The notes under the pieces: generated by a model
The model's input: only the letters and a program-made list of their open reading frames with translations
Told to the model about the DNA's origin: nothing
Databases searched by the model: none
In this document: in pieces, positions 13,911-33,561 of the stretch
How the letters are laid out: every line of letters starts with the position of its first letter
How positions within the stretch are numbered: position 1 is the stretch's first letter
Virus record (IMG/VR): IMGVR_UViG_3300036845_000140
Coordinates: 1 to 44,017 of that record
Reading direction: 5' to 3' (one strand)
Source: a virus
DNA length: 44,017 bases
Made by a program: the position numbers and the translations under genes

Positions 13911-14142
13911 CGGCGGCAAGGGCCAAATCTAGGGCGCTGTAGGGCGTGAACAGATTGTGGCGGATGTATTCCAGCGTCACGCTGCGCCGAAAGTTGATGA
14001 GGCATTGAGCGTCCAGGAGGGCGGGCACATGGCCGAAACGGTCAGTTACGAGCGCTCGCACCGGCATGATCGAGGCCGCGCGAACGATGGCAGGCGCCGC
14101 AATAACGCTCACCAATCCTGTCAGAAAACCGCGTCTGTTCAT
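13891..14142 (-). CDS. Twin-arginine-like leader fused to a capsid N-arm copy (downstream paralogue)
   Basis: This 83-residue protein has two parts. Residues 1-30 form a twin-arginine-type leader (NRRGFLTGL, hydrophobic stretch, then IVRAASIMPVRA). Residues 48-72 (INFRRSVTLEYIRHNLFTPY) resemble the N-arm of the major capsid protein (IVFRKEVTREYIRQNLFSPY). It overlaps the portal stop by four bases. A paralogue with the same two parts sits on the other side of portal. The short leader-type family is common in rhizobial prophages; its function is not known to me. See findings. Confidence 0.8.
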   Translation of the reverse strand: MNRRGFLTGLVSVIAAPAIVRAASIMPVRALVTDRFGHVPALLDAQCLINFRRSVTLEYIRHNLFTPYSALDLALAADERRAA

Positions 14143-16256
14143 GCTGCTCTCCGCTTCGGGATGTTCTGCTTCGCACGCTTGGCCTGCTCCTCGCGCTGCG
14201 ATTTCTTGAACTTCTCCTGCGCTTCAAGCTCTCGCATCTTGAAGGCGTGTTCCTCGCGCCGCTCCTGCATCGACAGGACGATGCTGGCCCGCTCCGCTTG
14301 GGCGCGCTCCCGCTCCAATTGAAGATCGGCGGCGTTGTTCTGCATTTCAGCGCGCGCCGCAGCCTCATCGGCCTGCGCCGCCATGTGGGCCCGGGCGACC
14401 TCTGCCTGCCCCTTTTGTTGTGCCGTTTGCTGCTTGATTTGCTCACCCTGCAGCTTCGCCTGCACCGCCGGGTCGGGCGCGGGCGGCTGGCTCATCATCT
14501 GCATGATCTTCTTCTTGATGCTGTCGGCGAGCGGCATCAGCTCGATCAGCGCTATGGGAGGCACCGTTCCGGGCGGCATCTGCGCCAGTATCTCAAAGGC
14601 GTCCTGCATCATGTTGGCTTGATCAGGACCTTCGTCGAGGATGATCTCGACATCGAGGCCGCCGAGCGCATTGATGAAATGCGGGATGCCGTTGTGGTCC
14701 TTCTGAAAGCCGTTGATCTGGATCAGCTTGGCGGTGTCGTCGGTCCCGGTTCGGATGAAGCGCTCTTGCGTCCAGTTGCGCTTGATGATGTTCCACACCG
14801 CTCGATACACACGAAGTTTCCAAGACCGGTAAGCGAGTATAAAGCTGCCAAGTTCTGCGATGCCGGCCTTTTGCAGATAATTGATAGCAACACCGGAGTG
14901 CTGATCCTTGTCATCATTCCCCATAACGTCAGGTCGTATGTTCGCAAAGCCATCGATTTCACTCGTTGCGGTTTGCATGAGCTGCAGCTGCGCGGCCAGG
15001 TCAGCCTCGCGCTGATCCGGCTCAGGCTTCGCGAAGCCCTTGTTGTACTCCACCAGTCCATCGGGCCGCGCGCTCTCGCGCCGCGCCAACTCCACGTCAT
15101 CGACGGCGCCCTTTTCGAGGAACAGGCGGGTGACGTTCGAAATGAACAGCGCCTTGGAGCGCCGCGCGTTGACCTCGTCCTGCGGCCCCTTGAGGTTGCG
15201 CACGAAGCCGTAGCGGTCGCCGTCGTGATCGACGCTGGCCGAGAACATCACGAAGCGGTTCATCGGCTTGTTGCGCTCGTCCAAGAACGGGCTCACGCCC
15301 TGATCGAGCAACACGAACGAGCAATAGAAGGCCCAGTACCACTTGCCTTTGTGCTTGTACCAATGCTCGACCAGGCGCACGCGCTGCTCTTGGGTGTAGA
15401 CCCATTTGAACTCCCGATCACTGTGGGTGGTGAGGTCGAAGCCCTCATTGACCATCAGCGAGCGGATTTCATCCTCTTTGTCGGGGAAGAGTTCGACAGC
15501 TGCCTCCACGTCAAGCCACTTAGCGATGCCCATATACCGAGCGTCGGAGAAGTCGGGCTTGAAGGAACGGGGGTCGTAAAAGAAGTCATCCCCGAATATC
15601 CAGTCTCCACCCAAATCTGGATCGCCGTGGTCGCCCTCGACGAGCTTGAGCTCGATCCCTGCAATGCCATCGATGCCACACTGTTTGACGCACTCGAAAT
15701 CGAGGTTCTTGAAGTCCATCCCGTCGAGAGCGGACTTGATGCACAGGGTCGCCAGCTCGGCGCCCTGCGCGTTCCTCGGGGACCGCGGAAAGGCCTTCGG
15801 ATCTTGTCGGAGCTTCTGGACGAGCGACGTGATGCCGTCGATCTTGCGATTGATCCGGTTGAACGTGACTACCGGCTGCTTGCGGCTGCGCAGGATGCGG
15901 ATTTGCTCGGGCGTCCAGTGGGCGCCGTGGTAGTAGTGCCGCGCCTCTTTCTGCTCCTCGTATTCCAGCACCTTGACCGACAGATAGTCGGTGTATTGCT
16001 GACGCAGCCGGCTGACCGCGAAGAAGCCGTCCTCGTCACCCGAATAGTCAAAGTCGTCGGGCTGTTCGGTTGCCCAATCGCCTACCGTTCCCTGCTTGGA
16101 CTTGAACTCCGGGAACGCCTTGCCAGAGGGCTGGAACGCACCGCGGCCGTTATGCAGCGGCCGGCGCGCGGTCGGATTGGGCGCGCGCTGGCGACCACCT
16201 AGCTTGCCGGCGTTGCCGAGTAGCACCGGCGCAAGGGCTTGGCGGGACGGGATCAT
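14139..16256 (-). CDS. P22-like portal protein
   Basis: At 705 residues the length and motif order fit P22-type portals. N-terminal helices (RLRQQYTDYLSVKVLEYEEQ) are followed by GAHWTPEQIRILRSRKQPVV, then FNRINRKIDGITSLVQKL, then the IDGIAGIELKLVEG and WIFGDDFFYDPRS segments. The C-terminal barrel is long, Gln/Ala/Arg/Glu-rich and coiled-coil-like (residues ~580-700). The dodecameric portal is the DNA gate and docking site for terminase. The ATG at 16256 overlaps the stop of the preceding mini-gene (ATGA). A segment near residue 375 (EKGAVDDVELARRESARPD) is echoed in a separate 55-aa gene. Confidence 0.85.
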   Translation of the reverse strand: MIPSRQALAPVLLGNAGKLGGRQRAPNPTARRPLHNGRGAFQPSGKAFPEFKSKQGTVGDWATEQPDDFDYSGDEDGFFAVSRLRQQYTDYLSVKVLEYEEQKEARHYYHGAHWTPEQIRILRSRKQPVVTFNRINRKIDGITSLVQKLRQDPKAFPRSPRNAQGAELATLCIKSALDGMDFKNLDFECVKQCGIDGIAGIELKLVEGDHGDPDLGGDWIFGDDFFYDPRSFKPDFSDARYMGIAKWLDVEAAVELFPDKEDEIRSLMVNEGFDLTTHSDREFKWVYTQEQRVRLVEHWYKHKGKWYWAFYCSFVLLDQGVSPFLDERNKPMNRFVMFSASVDHDGDRYGFVRNLKGPQDEVNARRSKALFISNVTRLFLEKGAVDDVELARRESARPDGLVEYNKGFAKPEPDQREADLAAQLQLMQTATSEIDGFANIRPDVMGNDDKDQHSGVAINYLQKAGIAELGSFILAYRSWKLRVYRAVWNIIKRNWTQERFIRTGTDDTAKLIQINGFQKDHNGIPHFINALGGLDVEIILDEGPDQANMMQDAFEILAQMPPGTVPPIALIELMPLADSIKKKIMQMMSQPPAPDPAVQAKLQGEQIKQQTAQQKGQAEVARAHMAAQADEAAARAEMQNNAADLQLERERAQAERASIVLSMQERREEHAFKMRELEAQEKFKKSQREEQAKRAKQNIPKRRAA

Positions 16257-16522
16257 GCAGCCCACGCCCCATGGTTCACCGTGCGGATGATCGCAGTCAA
16301 ATCCTGCCCTACGTAAGGGCTGAACAGATTTTGCCGCACATATTCTCGGATGATCTCTTTGCGAAACATGATGAGCCGATTGCCCCCAACCGCCTGCATG
16401 AGTCCGAAGCCGCGAAATTCATCCAGGATCAGGGCGCGCACCGGCATGATCGAAGCCGCGCGCACGATGGCCGGCGCCGCGAATGCGCTTGCAAGCCCGG
16501 TCAGAAACCCGCGCCTATCCAT
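16253..16522 (-). CDS. Twin-arginine-like leader fused to a capsid N-arm copy (upstream paralogue)
   Basis: This 89-residue protein starts at 16522 in a TGATG overlap. Residues 1-30 are a twin-arginine-type leader (DRRGFLTGL, APAIVRAASIMPVRA). Residues 50-81 (LIMFRKEIIREYVRQNLF, then SPYVGQDLTAIIR) are nearly identical to the major capsid N-arm (LIVFRKEVTREYIRQNLF, SPYVGSELTAIIR). The capsid similarity stops at the next residues and the protein ends in HGAWAA. It is a paralogue of the 83-aa protein at 13891-14142, and the two flank portal. Confidence 0.85.
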   Translation of the reverse strand: MDRRGFLTGLASAFAAPAIVRAASIMPVRALILDEFRGFGLMQAVGGNRLIMFRKEIIREYVRQNLFSPYVGQDLTAIIRTVNHGAWAA

Positions 16523-18027: not shown

Positions 18028-19545
18028 TCACAACGTCAACACGCTGATCTCCTGCCCGTCGATCAGGTCATCGTCCTTGGGCGCGTACGGGTTGCGCTCG
18101 AGCTCGGCCTCGGGGATCTTGCGCACCCATGGCCGCGAGCTGCACGCATACCGCCAATCGTCGGCGGCGTGATCCTCGCTCTCGGTGTCGAGGTCCTCTG
18201 GCTTCACCAGATCGTGCTGCAAGACCGGAATCGTGCGGATCGACGCCACGCATGTGTCGAAGCAGTAGATCATCGGCACGCCCATAGGCTTGCCCTTGTC
18301 ACTCAGCTTGCCGACCAAGCGCGCCCGCATCTGATCCCAGCCCGCCATCGGGCCCCTGCGATCCTTGCTGTCCCGCGTCGTTACGCGGGTATTGTCCGCT
18401 TCGTGGAAGGCTCGACGCTTCAGCCCGGTCAATTCTTCGTTGAGGCGCTCCGCAATGGTTGGCCCACCACCAATGTCCTTGAAACAGGACGGGTCTAGGA
18501 CACCATATGCACATCGCGGATCGTTCCCTTCCATCAGCGCCAAGCGCCGGCCGACCTCGTTGGCGTCGAGCTTCAGGCCTCGCTGGGCGTCTTTGGCGGG
18601 GTCTTTGGTTCCGTACCATTCGCGATATCTAACGAGCGCACCGCGTGGCAGAACTCGACCGTTGGCCATGCGGTAGTCGTCCTGGACAACCGCCCACCAT
18701 CCGAAGCTAAATGGAGAAGCCGAACCCCAATCCCCCGACATGAACCGGGTCCAAGTATGAGGGATGGCAAAAGGCTTAACGACATGGCGGTCACCCCTCC
18801 AGCAATCAAAGAACGCTCCCTCGACGACATCCCAGTCTCCGTCAAGCCAGGCCCTCACCATCGCCTCGGACCCGAGGCCGGCGAGTCGGTTCTTGTAGCT
18901 CGGGTCGTTCCTGATCAGGATCAGGTTTTGCGACAGCTTCGCAGGCACGAACATCCGATGGGCTTGCGTCACCGGATCGAATATCTTCTTGAAGCCCTCC
19001 CGACACGGCCTCACGAAGTAGGCCTTGACCCAATGGTGACCGACCCCTCCGGGATTTGCCGTCGCCCTGATCCGCTTGGTCGGAACGTCGTATTTGCTTC
19101 GCAGCCGCGCGCGCAAATAACGATATGCAGCGTCGGTGGCCCACTGTGTCAGCTCGTCCCAGCCGATCCACGTATAGGCCGCGCCTTGGTAGCGCGTGCG
19201 ATGCTTGAGTTGTTCGAGATACCGAAATCGGAGAAAGGCCCCATTGGGCCAAGTCCACGTCTTTTTTTGCTCGTTCCAGGTCGCACCGGTCTGGGGGTAA
19301 AGTTCCTGCGCGCGACCCATAAGCTCTTCGAGCTCGCCATAGGTCCGTCTGAAAATAATACCGCGCCACGCTTTGCCATACGTGGGAACATCCTGCAGAA
19401 AGTCGCCCAGGAGATAATCCGACTTGCCACCGCCCGCCGCACCGCCATAGAGAAGCTCCTCAACCCATGTCGCCTGTATCGCGTCGAGCTGCGGCCCTCT
19501 TTGGGGACTCCAGCGCTCGGCTAGCTCGAACTCCTCCGACATCAT
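18028..19545 (-). CDS. terL: Terminase large subunit
   Basis: This 505-residue protein has the ATPase and nuclease halves of a phage packaging motor. Walker A is GGAAGGGKS (residues 34-42). The Walker B-like acidic site is YTWIGWDEL at about 115. A coupling-type TANPGG lies near 160. The nuclease domain begins at FMSGDWGSASPFSFGWW with its first catalytic Asp, and further acidic residues follow. It cuts and pumps genome DNA into the prohead through portal. The ATG at 19545 overlaps the small subunit gene by 86 bp; a start at 19596 is possible. Confidence 0.88.
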   Translation of the reverse strand: MMSEEFELAERWSPQRGPQLDAIQATWVEELLYGGAAGGGKSDYLLGDFLQDVPTYGKAWRGIIFRRTYGELEELMGRAQELYPQTGATWNEQKKTWTWPNGAFLRFRYLEQLKHRTRYQGAAYTWIGWDELTQWATDAAYRYLRARLRSKYDVPTKRIRATANPGGVGHHWVKAYFVRPCREGFKKIFDPVTQAHRMFVPAKLSQNLILIRNDPSYKNRLAGLGSEAMVRAWLDGDWDVVEGAFFDCWRGDRHVVKPFAIPHTWTRFMSGDWGSASPFSFGWWAVVQDDYRMANGRVLPRGALVRYREWYGTKDPAKDAQRGLKLDANEVGRRLALMEGNDPRCAYGVLDPSCFKDIGGGPTIAERLNEELTGLKRRAFHEADNTRVTTRDSKDRRGPMAGWDQMRARLVGKLSDKGKPMGVPMIYCFDTCVASIRTIPVLQHDLVKPEDLDTESEDHAADDWRYACSSRPWVRKIPEAELERNPYAPKDDDLIDGQEISVLTL

Positions 19546-19999
19546 CGCGTGCCCGGCGGGCGCACCACTCTTCGTAGCTCTCTCTTGGAGGTGCATCGAT
19601 GAAGGCCGCGAAGTTGTTGGTGACGGTAACCTCTGCCGGCTTGTCGACCAGGAAGCCGCGCAGCCGCGCTATGCCAAGGATGGCGGTCACGGCGGCGGCG
19701 GGCTGCTTGATCTCCATGGCCAACAGCCGCGCTTCCTCGGCCTTGTCGATGAGCCGCTCGACCGTATGGACGGTCTTCTCTGCGACTGCGTTCTGTAATG
19801 CAGCCAAGCGGGCAACAATGTCGCCATTTGTAGCCAAACGGGCGGCGTGCTGCCGGCTTTCCTTATATCCTGCGGCCACATAGGCCTCGGTGGCTGACTT
19901 GCCCTTCGCCAGTTCTCTTACGAATGCCTCATGGCGTGGGTTAGCGAGCGGTCCAGACACGTCACCTCCGCCTAGTTTGGGCCGTCTATTTCGGTCCAT
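19460..19999 (-). CDS. terS: Terminase small subunit
   Basis: This 179-residue protein has the small-terminase pattern NPRHEAFVRELAKGKSATEA followed by AYVAAGYK and RLATNGDIVARLA, a helix-turn-helix DNA-binding part, then a helical oligomerisation region. It recognises the packaging site and recruits the large subunit encoded next. The C-terminal 28 residues are basic and overlap the large subunit gene in another frame, so that tail may be weakly conserved. Confidence 0.8.
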   Translation of the reverse strand: MDRNRRPKLGGGDVSGPLANPRHEAFVRELAKGKSATEAYVAAGYKESRQHAARLATNGDIVARLAALQNAVAEKTVHTVERLIDKAEEARLLAMEIKQPAAAVTAILGIARLRGFLVDKPAEVTVTNNFAAFIDAPPRESYEEWCARRARDDVGGVRASRALESPKRAAARRDTGDMG

Positions 20000-21870: not shown

Positions 21871-22629
21871 TCACCGCGCGGCCTCCCAAAGCAGGCAGTT
21901 CCGATTCCACCTGACCAGTCCGCAGACCTTCGCGCACGGCGCCAGGTCGCCGCCGGCAATCGCCTTGCCAAAGTGCTGGCAGTCGTCGCAGTCGCCCATC
22001 GAATACATGACCTCGGGGTCGCCCTTCGACCGCTTGAACGCATCCTCGACCCCCTTGGCCTTTAGGCCGCGGATCAGGATGAGGTCGGTCGGGCTCGGAT
22101 CGTCGAGGATCGGGCCGCACCACAATCGAGGCGGCGGATTGAATGTGCCGGCCTTGATCTTATTGACCGAGCGCTTGAGGCAGCGCTCGAGTGCCGGCTT
22201 TATCCTGGCCTCGTAGAACTGCGCCCGACCCCGGCCGAGCACGTCCTCGACCCCGATCTCCTCGTCGCACGTCGCAAGCCCGTGGGCCGCGCTGTAGCTG
22301 TCCGCAGGGTTGTCGCCCAGCTCGCAGCTTATCTCGGTGCCTTCGTGGCGCAGCCAGCAGCGGATGATCTGGGCGCCGGTCATGCCGGGCACACAGATCC
22401 AAAGATGCTTCGCCACCGCGCTAGTGCCCATTACCTCGGCATGGAGCTGGCGATCGATGTAGAGCTCGCTCGCGTCAACCGCGGCACCCCCGCCATACGG
22501 CACATCGTAGCTCGTGGTCGCGTTCAGCTTGCGGGTCTTGGCGATCCATCGCGAGGTGTCGGCCTCGCCCTCGATCAGTTTCAGCTCCTGGACGGTCTTG
22601 GCGTTGTGCTTGTAGTGCCCCACGCTCAC
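21871..22629 (-). CDS. Phage protein with HExxE motif and Cys-rich C-terminus, 252 aa
   Basis: The GTG at 22629 overlaps the methyltransferase stop (GTGA). A HEGTE motif near residue 97 followed by GDNPADSYSAAH could be a metal site. The last 40 residues carry CxxC (CDDCQHFG), then CAKVC and a final Cys near CLLW, a spacing reminiscent of HiPIP-like or zinc modules at the end of some phage structural proteins. Similar proteins occur in alphaproteobacterial prophages. No enzyme activity can be claimed. Confidence 0.6.
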   Translation of the reverse strand: MSVGHYKHNAKTVQELKLIEGEADTSRWIAKTRKLNATTSYDVPYGGGAAVDASELYIDRQLHAEVMGTSAVAKHLWICVPGMTGAQIIRCWLRHEGTEISCELGDNPADSYSAAHGLATCDEEIGVEDVLGRGRAQFYEARIKPALERCLKRSVNKIKAGTFNPPPRLWCGPILDDPSPTDLILIRGLKAKGVEDAFKRSKGDPEVMYSMGDCDDCQHFGKAIAGGDLAPCAKVCGLVRWNRNCLLWEAAR

Positions 22630-23534
22630 GGCCGGCACTCCATGAACGCGCCTATGAACTCGGCCGCGACTTGCGGGACGATGGCATTGCCGAGGGCGCG
22701 CAGCTTACCCACGCGAGCGGGTATCCCATGAGCCACGCGAGCGGGTATCCCATGAGCCACGCGACCCACGTCGGGTTCAGTTGCCCACCAATCACTTCCG
22801 GTAGCTGCGGCGAGTGGCCGTTCTCCTGCCTGCCCTTCCCCGATCTCCAATCCCTTGCCGCTGGCGATGGCAGCAGATAGCTCTTGGGCGGCCGGCCCGC
22901 GGTGCGCAGATGAACAGCCTTCGTGTTGGTCGCAGTCGGCGTCGGGAACATTGCCACGGCCTGCGGGAGCGGAATGCCGGTGTCCTGTGGCCGGAAAGTG
23001 CCCGTCCCGCGGCGACCATCCACTGCGGTCGGTGTGGGCCACAAACCAATACCGATCGCGCTTGTGGAGCGCGCCCACGCTTGAGGCTTCGATAGGCATT
23101 GCCCCCACGGCGTATTCCACGGCTTCCATGTTACGGCGCACAAGTGCGAGCCATGCAGCCGCGCTCGCAACCTGTTCTCCAAAGACGATTGCAGGGCGGC
23201 ACTGGCGGATGAGGCGATACCAGTCTGGCCAGAGATGCCGCTTGTCGTCGACGCCCTGCATTCCACCAGCCAGGCTGAAGGGCTGACAAGGGCACGACCC
23301 GGTCCACACGGGGCGATCGTCAGACCATCCAGCGAGCCGCAAGGCATGCGACCAACCACCGAGGCCAGCGAAGAAGTGGCACTGTCGGAACGGTCGGATG
23401 TCGTCAGGTCGAACATCCACGATGCTCCTGCGGTCCACCACACCGTTGGCGATCAGGCCCGCGTCGATCAGGTTGAGCAGCCATTGAGCCGCGTAAGGCT
23501 CGATCTCGTTGTAGTAGGCGAGACCGGCCGGCAT
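22626..23534 (-). CDS. DNA (cytosine-5) methyltransferase
   Basis: This 302-residue C5-methyltransferase has motif I (HFFAGLGGWS, residues 53-62), the catalytic Pro-Cys loop (PCQPFS, 82-87, with Cys83 as nucleophile), FGEQVAS in place of the usual ENV motif, then GALHKRDRYWFVAH and the C-terminal LRALGNAIVPQVAAEFIGAF. It would methylate cytosines in phage or host DNA, most simply to resist restriction. Its TRD-like middle (residues 165-270) is low-complexity in this frame, while the +1 frame there reads like another known methyltransferase C-terminal region. The ATG at 23534 is preferred to a TTG two codons earlier. Confidence 0.85.
   Translation of the reverse strand: MPAGLAYYNEIEPYAAQWLLNLIDAGLIANGVVDRRSIVDVRPDDIRPFRQCHFFAGLGGWSHALRLAGWSDDRPVWTGSCPCQPFSLAGGMQGVDDKRHLWPDWYRLIRQCRPAIVFGEQVASAAAWLALVRRNMEAVEYAVGAMPIEASSVGALHKRDRYWFVAHTDRSGWSPRDGHFPATGHRHSAPAGRGNVPDADCDQHEGCSSAHRGPAAQELSAAIASGKGLEIGEGQAGERPLAAATGSDWWATEPDVGRVAHGIPARVAHGIPARVGKLRALGNAIVPQVAAEFIGAFMECRP
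22711..22764 (-). repeat. 24-bp tandem duplication inside the methyltransferase gene
   Basis: The 24-base unit at 22711-22734 is repeated exactly at 22735-22758, with 6 more bases of a third copy (22759-22764). In the main frame it duplicates RVAHGIPA; in the +1 frame it duplicates WLMGYPLA. Because the unit is 8 codons long, both frames stay open. A recent slippage or duplication event is the simplest origin. Confidence 0.95.
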
Positions 23535-23586
23535 TGCCAAAACCCCGCAAATGTGCTTGCGTTTTCACCACATCGGAGGTGAGACG

Positions 23587-32169: not shown

Positions 32170-33561
32170 ATGGCGAAGCAGGCAACGGCGACCGCAGAGC
32201 GGGTCGAGCAGAAGATCGAGGAGGCCCCGGCAACGCAGCTGCCGGCGGTGCGCGACAACGTGACCCCGCTGCCGCGCGCCGTCGCGGCCCCGACCTACCC
32301 GCCCAAGATCGCCAAGGCGATCATCGCGGTGACACAGAAGATCGGCCACGTCGCGAAGGACGGGACCAACACGTTCCAGAACTACAAATATCCGAAATGG
32401 GAAGACGTGAACGAGAAGCTCTCTCCGCTGCTCGCGGAGCACGGCCTCATCATCGTGCAGAGCGAGGTGCGCCGCGACCTGCTCGAAAGCAGCATGGAGC
32501 ACGGCAGCGTGCTCGCCATCGTCTACCGCTTCACCATCGTCAACGATGATGGCGATGCGTGGCCTGAGATCGAGTGGACCGCGCTCGCCCGGCTGCGCAG
32601 CGAGAAGGGTGTCAGCGACGACAAGGCCGCCGCCAAGTGCCACACCCAAGGCGAGAAATATTTTTCGCTGAAAATGTTCAAGGTCAGGATCGGGGACGAG
32701 AAACTCGACAGCGATGCCGATGACGGCACCGGCAAGGTGAGTGCGACTGCGGAACCGGAAGCCGCCGAGGAGCCTCACCTCGTCACCGTCAGCAAGGGAG
32801 GTGCCAAGGCGTGGGCGCAGAAGTACATGGGCGCGATCCGGCGCGCGCGGTCGGCCGACGAGCTGATGGATTGGATGGTTCAGAACACGGATCAGCTCAA
32901 GAAGCTCGAAACCGCCGACGATGCGTTGTCGAAGAAGGTAAGCGAAGCAACCAAGCTTCGATTCGGCGAACTGCCGCCGGTCGATGAGGCCGCCAAGCCC
33001 GCCGCGCCCGAGGGTAAGCCGCTACCGCCGCGCGTCGATCAGAAGGCCGCGCAGCAAAAGCCCGTCGAGCCGCCCAAGGACGACATCGCCCAGGCGCTCG
33101 ACAACGCCGCCGCCAAGCAACAAGACCCGATGGCGATCCCCGACAACCTAAAGCGCATGGGGAACGTCGAGATTCAGCAGTGGTTGGACAAGCTGCACGA
33201 CGACCTGGAGGCTGCTCCGACGCAACAGACGGCCCTCGATGTCCAGATGCAGAACCTCACCACCGACATGCAGCGCAAGGTCACACCCGCGGCCTGGGCT
33301 GAGGCGGTCAAGAAGGTGCGGGCCCGCGCCCAATATCTGCTCGATCATCCGACCAAGCAGGCATTCGACGCCGAGAAATGGCTGGCGCCGAATGGTGACC
33401 TGGAGACGGCGCTTGCTGCCTGCGAAGCGCTGGAGCAGCTCGACGAGGTGAAGGACAAGACGCTGATCCCGTCGAAGGACAGCCTCACCACCGATCAGTG
33501 GAAGCGCGCGGTGAAGCTCTACCGCTCGCACCTGGGCCGCATCGACCCGGAGGCGATTTAG
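32170..33561 (+). CDS. erf: ERF-family single-strand annealing protein
   Basis: Residues ~45-180 match the P22 ERF core: KIAKAIIAVTQKIGHVAKDG, then FQNYKYPKWEDVNEKLSPLL, AEHGLIIVQSE, and the C-terminal KCHTQGEKYFSLKMF. It would anneal complementary single strands during phage recombination with the nuclease encoded just before. At 463 aa it is longer than P22 Erf (about 204), because of a Lys/Ala/Glu-rich linker and a C-terminal helical domain. Its 14-base leader also precedes the scaffold gene. Confidence 0.8.
   Translation: MAKQATATAERVEQKIEEAPATQLPAVRDNVTPLPRAVAAPTYPPKIAKAIIAVTQKIGHVAKDGTNTFQNYKYPKWEDVNEKLSPLLAEHGLIIVQSEVRRDLLESSMEHGSVLAIVYRFTIVNDDGDAWPEIEWTALARLRSEKGVSDDKAAAKCHTQGEKYFSLKMFKVRIGDEKLDSDADDGTGKVSATAEPEAAEEPHLVTVSKGGAKAWAQKYMGAIRRARSADELMDWMVQNTDQLKKLETADDALSKKVSEATKLRFGELPPVDEAAKPAAPEGKPLPPRVDQKAAQQKPVEPPKDDIAQALDNAAAKQQDPMAIPDNLKRMGNVEIQQWLDKLHDDLEAAPTQQTALDVQMQNLTTDMQRKVTPAAWAEAVKKVRARAQYLLDHPTKQAFDAEKWLAPNGDLETALAACEALEQLDEVKDKTLIPSKDSLTTDQWKRAVKLYRSHLGRIDPEAI

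Follow-up and report, generated by a model that had tools for sequence, protein, structure and literature searches.

A second conserved and selected reading frame inside a phage C5-cytosine methyltransferase gene

Split methyltransferases and the phage locus

The small chain of the EcoHK31I methyltransferase is encoded in another frame inside the gene for the large chain, and both chains are needed in vitro; M.EaeI is grouped with M.EcoHK31I as a close known system. In the account given in PMC3404938, M.EcoHK31I (YGGCCR) is a two-polypeptide C5-methyltransferase with motifs I to VIII and X on the large chain and motif IX alone on the small polypeptide (citing Lee, Kam and Shaw 1995), the predicted target-recognition domain (TRD) being placed in the large subunit. 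M.AquI (CYCGRG) is split linearly, with motifs I to VIII and part of the variable region followed by the rest of this region with motifs IX and X (PMC3404938). A different arrangement is the ShiLan element, a hidden HNH endonuclease within a phage methylase, which is an inserted homing element (PMC11855218).

The locus described here is located in a viral stretch of 44,017 nucleotides (IMG/VR record IMGVR_UViG_3300036845_000140, the window), in which two frames of the same strand, A and B, are superposed (Table 1). As in the PMC3404938 description of M.EcoHK31I, the large chain has motifs I to VIII and X, and motif IX is on the smaller chain; unlike in that description, the TRD is selected in the small-chain frame and not in the large chain. 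Given the same division of motifs and the other placing of the TRD, the locus probably works like EcoHK31I, in a comparison made by description, with no membership by descent claimed. Unlike M.EcoHK31I, the locus is an orphan phage gene, with no restriction enzyme seen near it. Searches of plasmids and 392 Enterobacteriaceae genomes with B or phrog_1008 revealed no EcoHK31I-like system in the few neighbourhoods viewed. M.AquI is likewise a natural two-chain C5-methyltransferase (the two chains being predicted in our case), but its motif X is on the second chain, while in the locus it is on the frame A chain. Monomeric C5-methyltransferases such as M.HhaI share the large-domain fold and motif order with frame A, but carry the TRD and motif IX on one chain with the rest. 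Frame A differs, these two parts being in the +1 frame. In both the ShiLan element and the locus, a phage methylase gene conceals a further protein in a different frame; the former is an inserted element, whereas frame B is conserved family-wide.

The window looks like a P22-like tailed phage. It contains a P22-like portal (14139–16265), a terminase large subunit (18028–19596) and an ERF recombinase (32170–33561).

Table 1. Features of the methyltransferase locus, in window positions
Feature	Position	Strand	Basis
Frame A, C5-cytosine methyltransferase catalytic chain, motifs I–VIII and X	22626–23534	-	ATG start; Pfam PF00145, phrog_363, M.HhaI alignment of model
Frame B (+1 relative to A), 254 amino acids, probable recognition chain, TRD repeats and motif IX	22652–23416	-	phrog_1008; open and selected across relatives
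Shine-Dalgarno-like AGGAG	23425–23429	-	8 nt before B ATG (23416–23414); sequence and similar context in 49 of 67 relatives
Motif IV, catalytic Pro-Cys-Gln, frame A	23283–23291	-	P84, C85 and Q86 invariant in 59 sequences
Motif VI-like Glu-Gln-Val, frame A	23169–23177	-	E122 and V124 invariant, Q123 nearly so (59 sequences)
Motif VIII, KRDRYW, frame A	23046–23063	-	R161 and R163 invariant (59 sequences)
TRD stretch, frame B reads WPTP...FPTP...LPSP	22781–23041	-	Codon-position reversal: B selected, A nearly free, A predicted disordered
Motif IX, LNPTWVAWLMGYPLAWLMGYPLAW, frame B, with 24-bp tandem duplication	22709–22780	-	Motif identity from comparison of relatives
Motif X, LRALGNAIVPQVA, frame A	22665–22703	-	N285 invariant (59 sequences); frame A divergence pattern from here on

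Both frames and their openness in relatives

Frame A covers 22626–23540 when read from a TTG start, or begins at 23534 with the ATG used in the original prediction. It matches phrog_363 (2.3e-76), the Pfam model DNA_methylase (PF00145, 8.2e-13 over residues 80–176) and, in a PDB profile search, the HhaI profile. The Pfam and PDB matches stop after motif VIII. The original prediction had placed the full C5-methyltransferase motif set in this frame; motif X is indeed present, but motif IX and a recognisable TRD are missing, and motif IX is found in frame B. The structure model of frame A can be aligned to M.HhaI (residues 34 to 323) over 169 of 327 residues, with a Z-score of 15.9 and an r.m.s.d. 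of 2.6; the parts containing motifs I to VIII and X fold like the M.HhaI large domain, motif X included. In the model, residues 180–272, with a pLDDT below 50, form a disordered TRD stretch and there is no folded small domain. At 22626–22638, frame A and the next gene (21871–22638) share a GTGA, in which the stop of the former meets the GTG start of the latter, suggesting translational coupling. The product of this next gene has no Pfam match.

Frame B is open over 263 amino acids (22652–23443), reaching back to a GTG at 23443, and contains all the strings quoted in the original prediction (LWPTPTAVDG and MFPTPTATN among them); its WPTP (23041–23030) overlies VAHT of frame A, also as predicted. 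The start is most likely the ATG at 23416 and not this GTG. When the frames were searched separately, B matched phrog_1008 (5.4e-22 for the window, 1e-23 to 1e-46 for five divergent relatives) and A matched phrog_363 and Pfam DNA_methylase. The observation that the same DNA reads as known protein in both frames is confirmed, and more strongly than the original prediction had it. No Pfam or NCBIfam model was found for frame B, a comparison of 57 B members with Pfam gave isolated weak matches only, and no solved structure was matched in a PDB profile search. Frame B contains W-P-T-P type repeats and, alongside these, motif IX (LNPTWVAWLMGYP); its C-terminal end is LNPxWVEWLMGFPxxW. Modelled alone, it gives a poor structure (pLDDT 57) with one helix, a hairpin and short C-terminal helices, which was left out of the fold search. 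Folding upon a partner could be the reason for the poor model.

In the window gene alone, the +1 frame contains no stops where 2.3 are expected (P 0.025), so this single gene proves little. A first set of 80 viral relatives was gathered with frame A only, and openness of B was therefore not selected for. In these loci the +1 frame is open over the body of the gene, with stops nearly always before the B start or in the last codons, and the +2 frame contains many stops. When 133 non-redundant loci, collected with either frame as query, are compared with synonymous shuffling within each gene, there are 22 stops in the +1 frame against 482 expected, without comparable depletion in the +2 control (1305 against 1382). 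Independent loci from bacterial genomes, found with B, have 25 against 210 in the +1 frame and 739 against 729 in the +2 frame. The other long open reading frames of the window show no comparable depletion. The depletion is present in every GC class of relatives, including below 0.54; B is open where it matters in lower-GC loci from Paenibacillus and Bacteroides plasmids, and open between motifs VIII and X in viral loci with a GC content of 0.44–0.50.

Frame A adjoins frame B in the expected relative frame in the loci collected with B (80 viral, 80 bacterial) and in 12 phage records, with one exception (L149), in which A-like and B-like parts are joined in one frame. The same is seen in L131, as a one-base shift would give; both may be contig or sequencing errors or natural fusions. 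Another locus (L317) appeared exceptional at first, but A is present by eye. Three of the loci that depart from the open +1 frame were viewed, L131 being one of them; in the other two, L046 and L070, frame A does not end near the B stop but remains open through an HNH gene inserted there; the endonuclease reading frames (L046:2621–3157 and L070:2016–2420) are located after the B stop and before motif X, and the insertions resemble the ShiLan element (PMC11855218). One locus (L275) contains the A/B pair in two tandem copies.

Alternation of the selected frame and the place of motif IX

Divergence was measured in 74 disjoint pairs, many of them from metagenomic contigs, on ungapped blastn blocks, which keeps the alignment independent of either protein. 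For codon positions 1, 2 and 3 of frame A it is.122/.088/.366 before motif IV,.122/.068/.219 in the part from motif IV to VIII,.286/.098/.087 in the TRD,.185/.072/.098 around motif IX and.091/.056/.259 from motif X onwards. Pairs in which the first position diverges more than the third, against the opposite, number 0 and 72 before motif IV, 69 and 4 in the TRD, and 1 and 42 from motif X. As the third position of B is the first of A, and the second of B the third of A, the position free to vary is at first the third of A, then the third of B, and then the third of A again. The selected frame thus alternates: it is A for motifs I to VIII, B for the TRD and motif IX, and A again for motif X. Overlap-aware ratios, from a simplified count, agree with this: for B the ratio drops from about 1 ahead of its start, a part that serves as internal control, to about 0.3 in the TRD, while for A it is 0.6–0.7 in the TRD and about 0.2–0.3 over motifs I to VIII. 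The refuting case named in the original prediction, selection in one frame only with stops in the other in close relatives, was looked for and not encountered, and the proposed overprinting is strongly supported. Chance openness in GC-rich DNA is ruled out by the synonymous shuffling and the codon-position reversal.

The identity of motif IX is derived from one clade, consisting of a Rickettsiales plasmid locus (L175) and L179 to L181. In this clade frame B remains the selected one in the TRD, and frame A is the selected one in the part with motifs IX and X; the LNPxWVEWLMGFPxxW peptide is located in frame A just ahead of motif X, where it aligns in register, weakly, with motifs IX–X of plant DRM2 (E 0.008). 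The Pfam DNA_methylase match covers residues 3–322 of 324 of the clade A chain, while in an A chain of the overlapping type (L185) it ends at residue 169. From its position in frame A, the DRM2 register and the fuller Pfam match, the peptide is the C5-methyltransferase motif IX, which in the window is encoded by frame B. Through a perfect 24-bp tandem duplication (22709–22764, 2.3 copies), motif IX of frame B and the RVAHGIPA of frame A each recur, and both frames stay intact. The duplication is absent from the aligned relatives and may weaken motif IX, or may be an assembly error.

A probable two-chain enzyme, its alternatives and its meaning

Conservation and selection are seen in both frames, which between them divide the parts of the C5-methyltransferase plan. 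Most likely they are the two halves of a DNA-methylating enzyme, one catalytic and the other sequence-recognising, and the locus very probably encodes a two-polypeptide C5-methyltransferase with the recognition subunit overprinted inside the gene of the catalytic subunit, like M.EcoHK31I. Frame A would provide the catalytic large domain, with SAM binding, the PCQ of motif IV, motif VIII and motif X, and its stretch between motifs VIII and X would be a filler linker. Frame B, from its own internal ATG, would provide the small domain with the target-recognition repeats and motif IX, and together the chains would form a single active enzyme, on the pattern of M.EcoHK31I. We infer from the sequences that B is translated, that A and B bind each other and that both are needed for methylation.

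An unlikely alternative is that B is indeed a genuine overprinted protein but, instead of being a methyltransferase subunit, does something else, such as regulation or anti-restriction. The link of B to methylation comes from sequence and its fold is poorly modelled, as such a protein would allow, but it bears a motif of C5-methyltransferases, supplies exactly the parts that are missing from A, and co-occurs with A in the examined loci.

Programmed ribosomal frameshifting, giving two C-termini in the original prediction, would join A to B (motifs I to VIII, TRD, motif IX), maybe with a second shift back to motif X. The switches of the selected frame near motif VIII and again near motif X would fit, as would the two loci with A-like and B-like parts in one frame, which are possibly contig errors. 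A single shift loses motif X and cannot explain the return of the constrained frame to A there; two are needed. B is also under selection before the TRD, and it has a conserved start of its own, which makes this explanation unlikely. An open, in-frame B ATG is located no more than 62 nt upstream of the HFFAG motif in 65 of 67 window-type relatives, 49 of them with a Shine-Dalgarno-like sequence, and the A codon for Asp that contributes to the usual B ATG is GAT in 45 of 59 cases, against 24.5 expected. In a core subgroup, the start of B comes 4 nt behind that of A (ATGAATG) and immediately follows an in-frame stop. The conserved ATG, its context and the subgroup start indicate that B can be initiated independently.

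A last possibility, that B is open only as a by-product of A in GC-rich DNA and that phrog_1008 consists of miscalled genes, can practically be discounted: many members do have a high GC content and the openness of the window gene is only mildly unlikely, but stops are depleted in relatives at all GC levels, neither the +2 frame nor other genes show this, and B-type third positions are the most variable in the TRD.

Returning to the two-chain enzyme, the locus matches both phrog_363 and phrog_1008, a different family also named "DNA methyltransferase", and these are two frames of one kind of locus. A tblastn search with B gave 58 phage records; in the 12 that were read, A and B are in the same relative frames, but the annotated frame differs, being B in PMG1, Tunturi_1, FoX4 and JC01, A in most others and neither in Riah. 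The idea that one family is a frame-shifted annotation does not hold as an artefact, but it does describe annotation practice, as records annotate A or B. The phages, prophages and plasmids that carry relatives of B belong to Proteobacteria, Planctomycetes, Acidobacteria, Nitrospira, Verrucomicrobia, Bacteroides and Paenibacillus; among 392 Enterobacteriaceae genomes, 30 contain such a relative. The hidden second protein is found in hundreds of relatives and is usually missed or mislabelled by annotation. The arrangement is unreported for phages in the literature searched, most subscription journals being outside the reach of the search.

More generally, there are reasonable grounds to think that the phrog_363 kind of C5-methyltransferase in phages and prophages mostly cannot work without a second subunit, the specificity subunit (TRD and motif IX, phrog_1008), which is overprinted in the +1 frame and recombines as WPTP-type cassettes. 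In that case many database entries would cover just one of the two subunits, and the assignment of the TRD to the large subunit in EcoHK31I-type enzymes would have to be revised. It would be an unusually long and widespread same-strand overlap, of about 200–400 codons with both frames selected, in phages and prophages of many bacterial phyla. It accounts for annotation calling either frame "DNA methyltransferase", puts the specificity determinant in the frame that annotation often ignores, and implies that a phage methyltransferase of this family will not work when cloned unless the frame B product is made as well. The family would further serve as a test bed for how an inserted domain of a single-chain protein becomes a second, overlapping gene.
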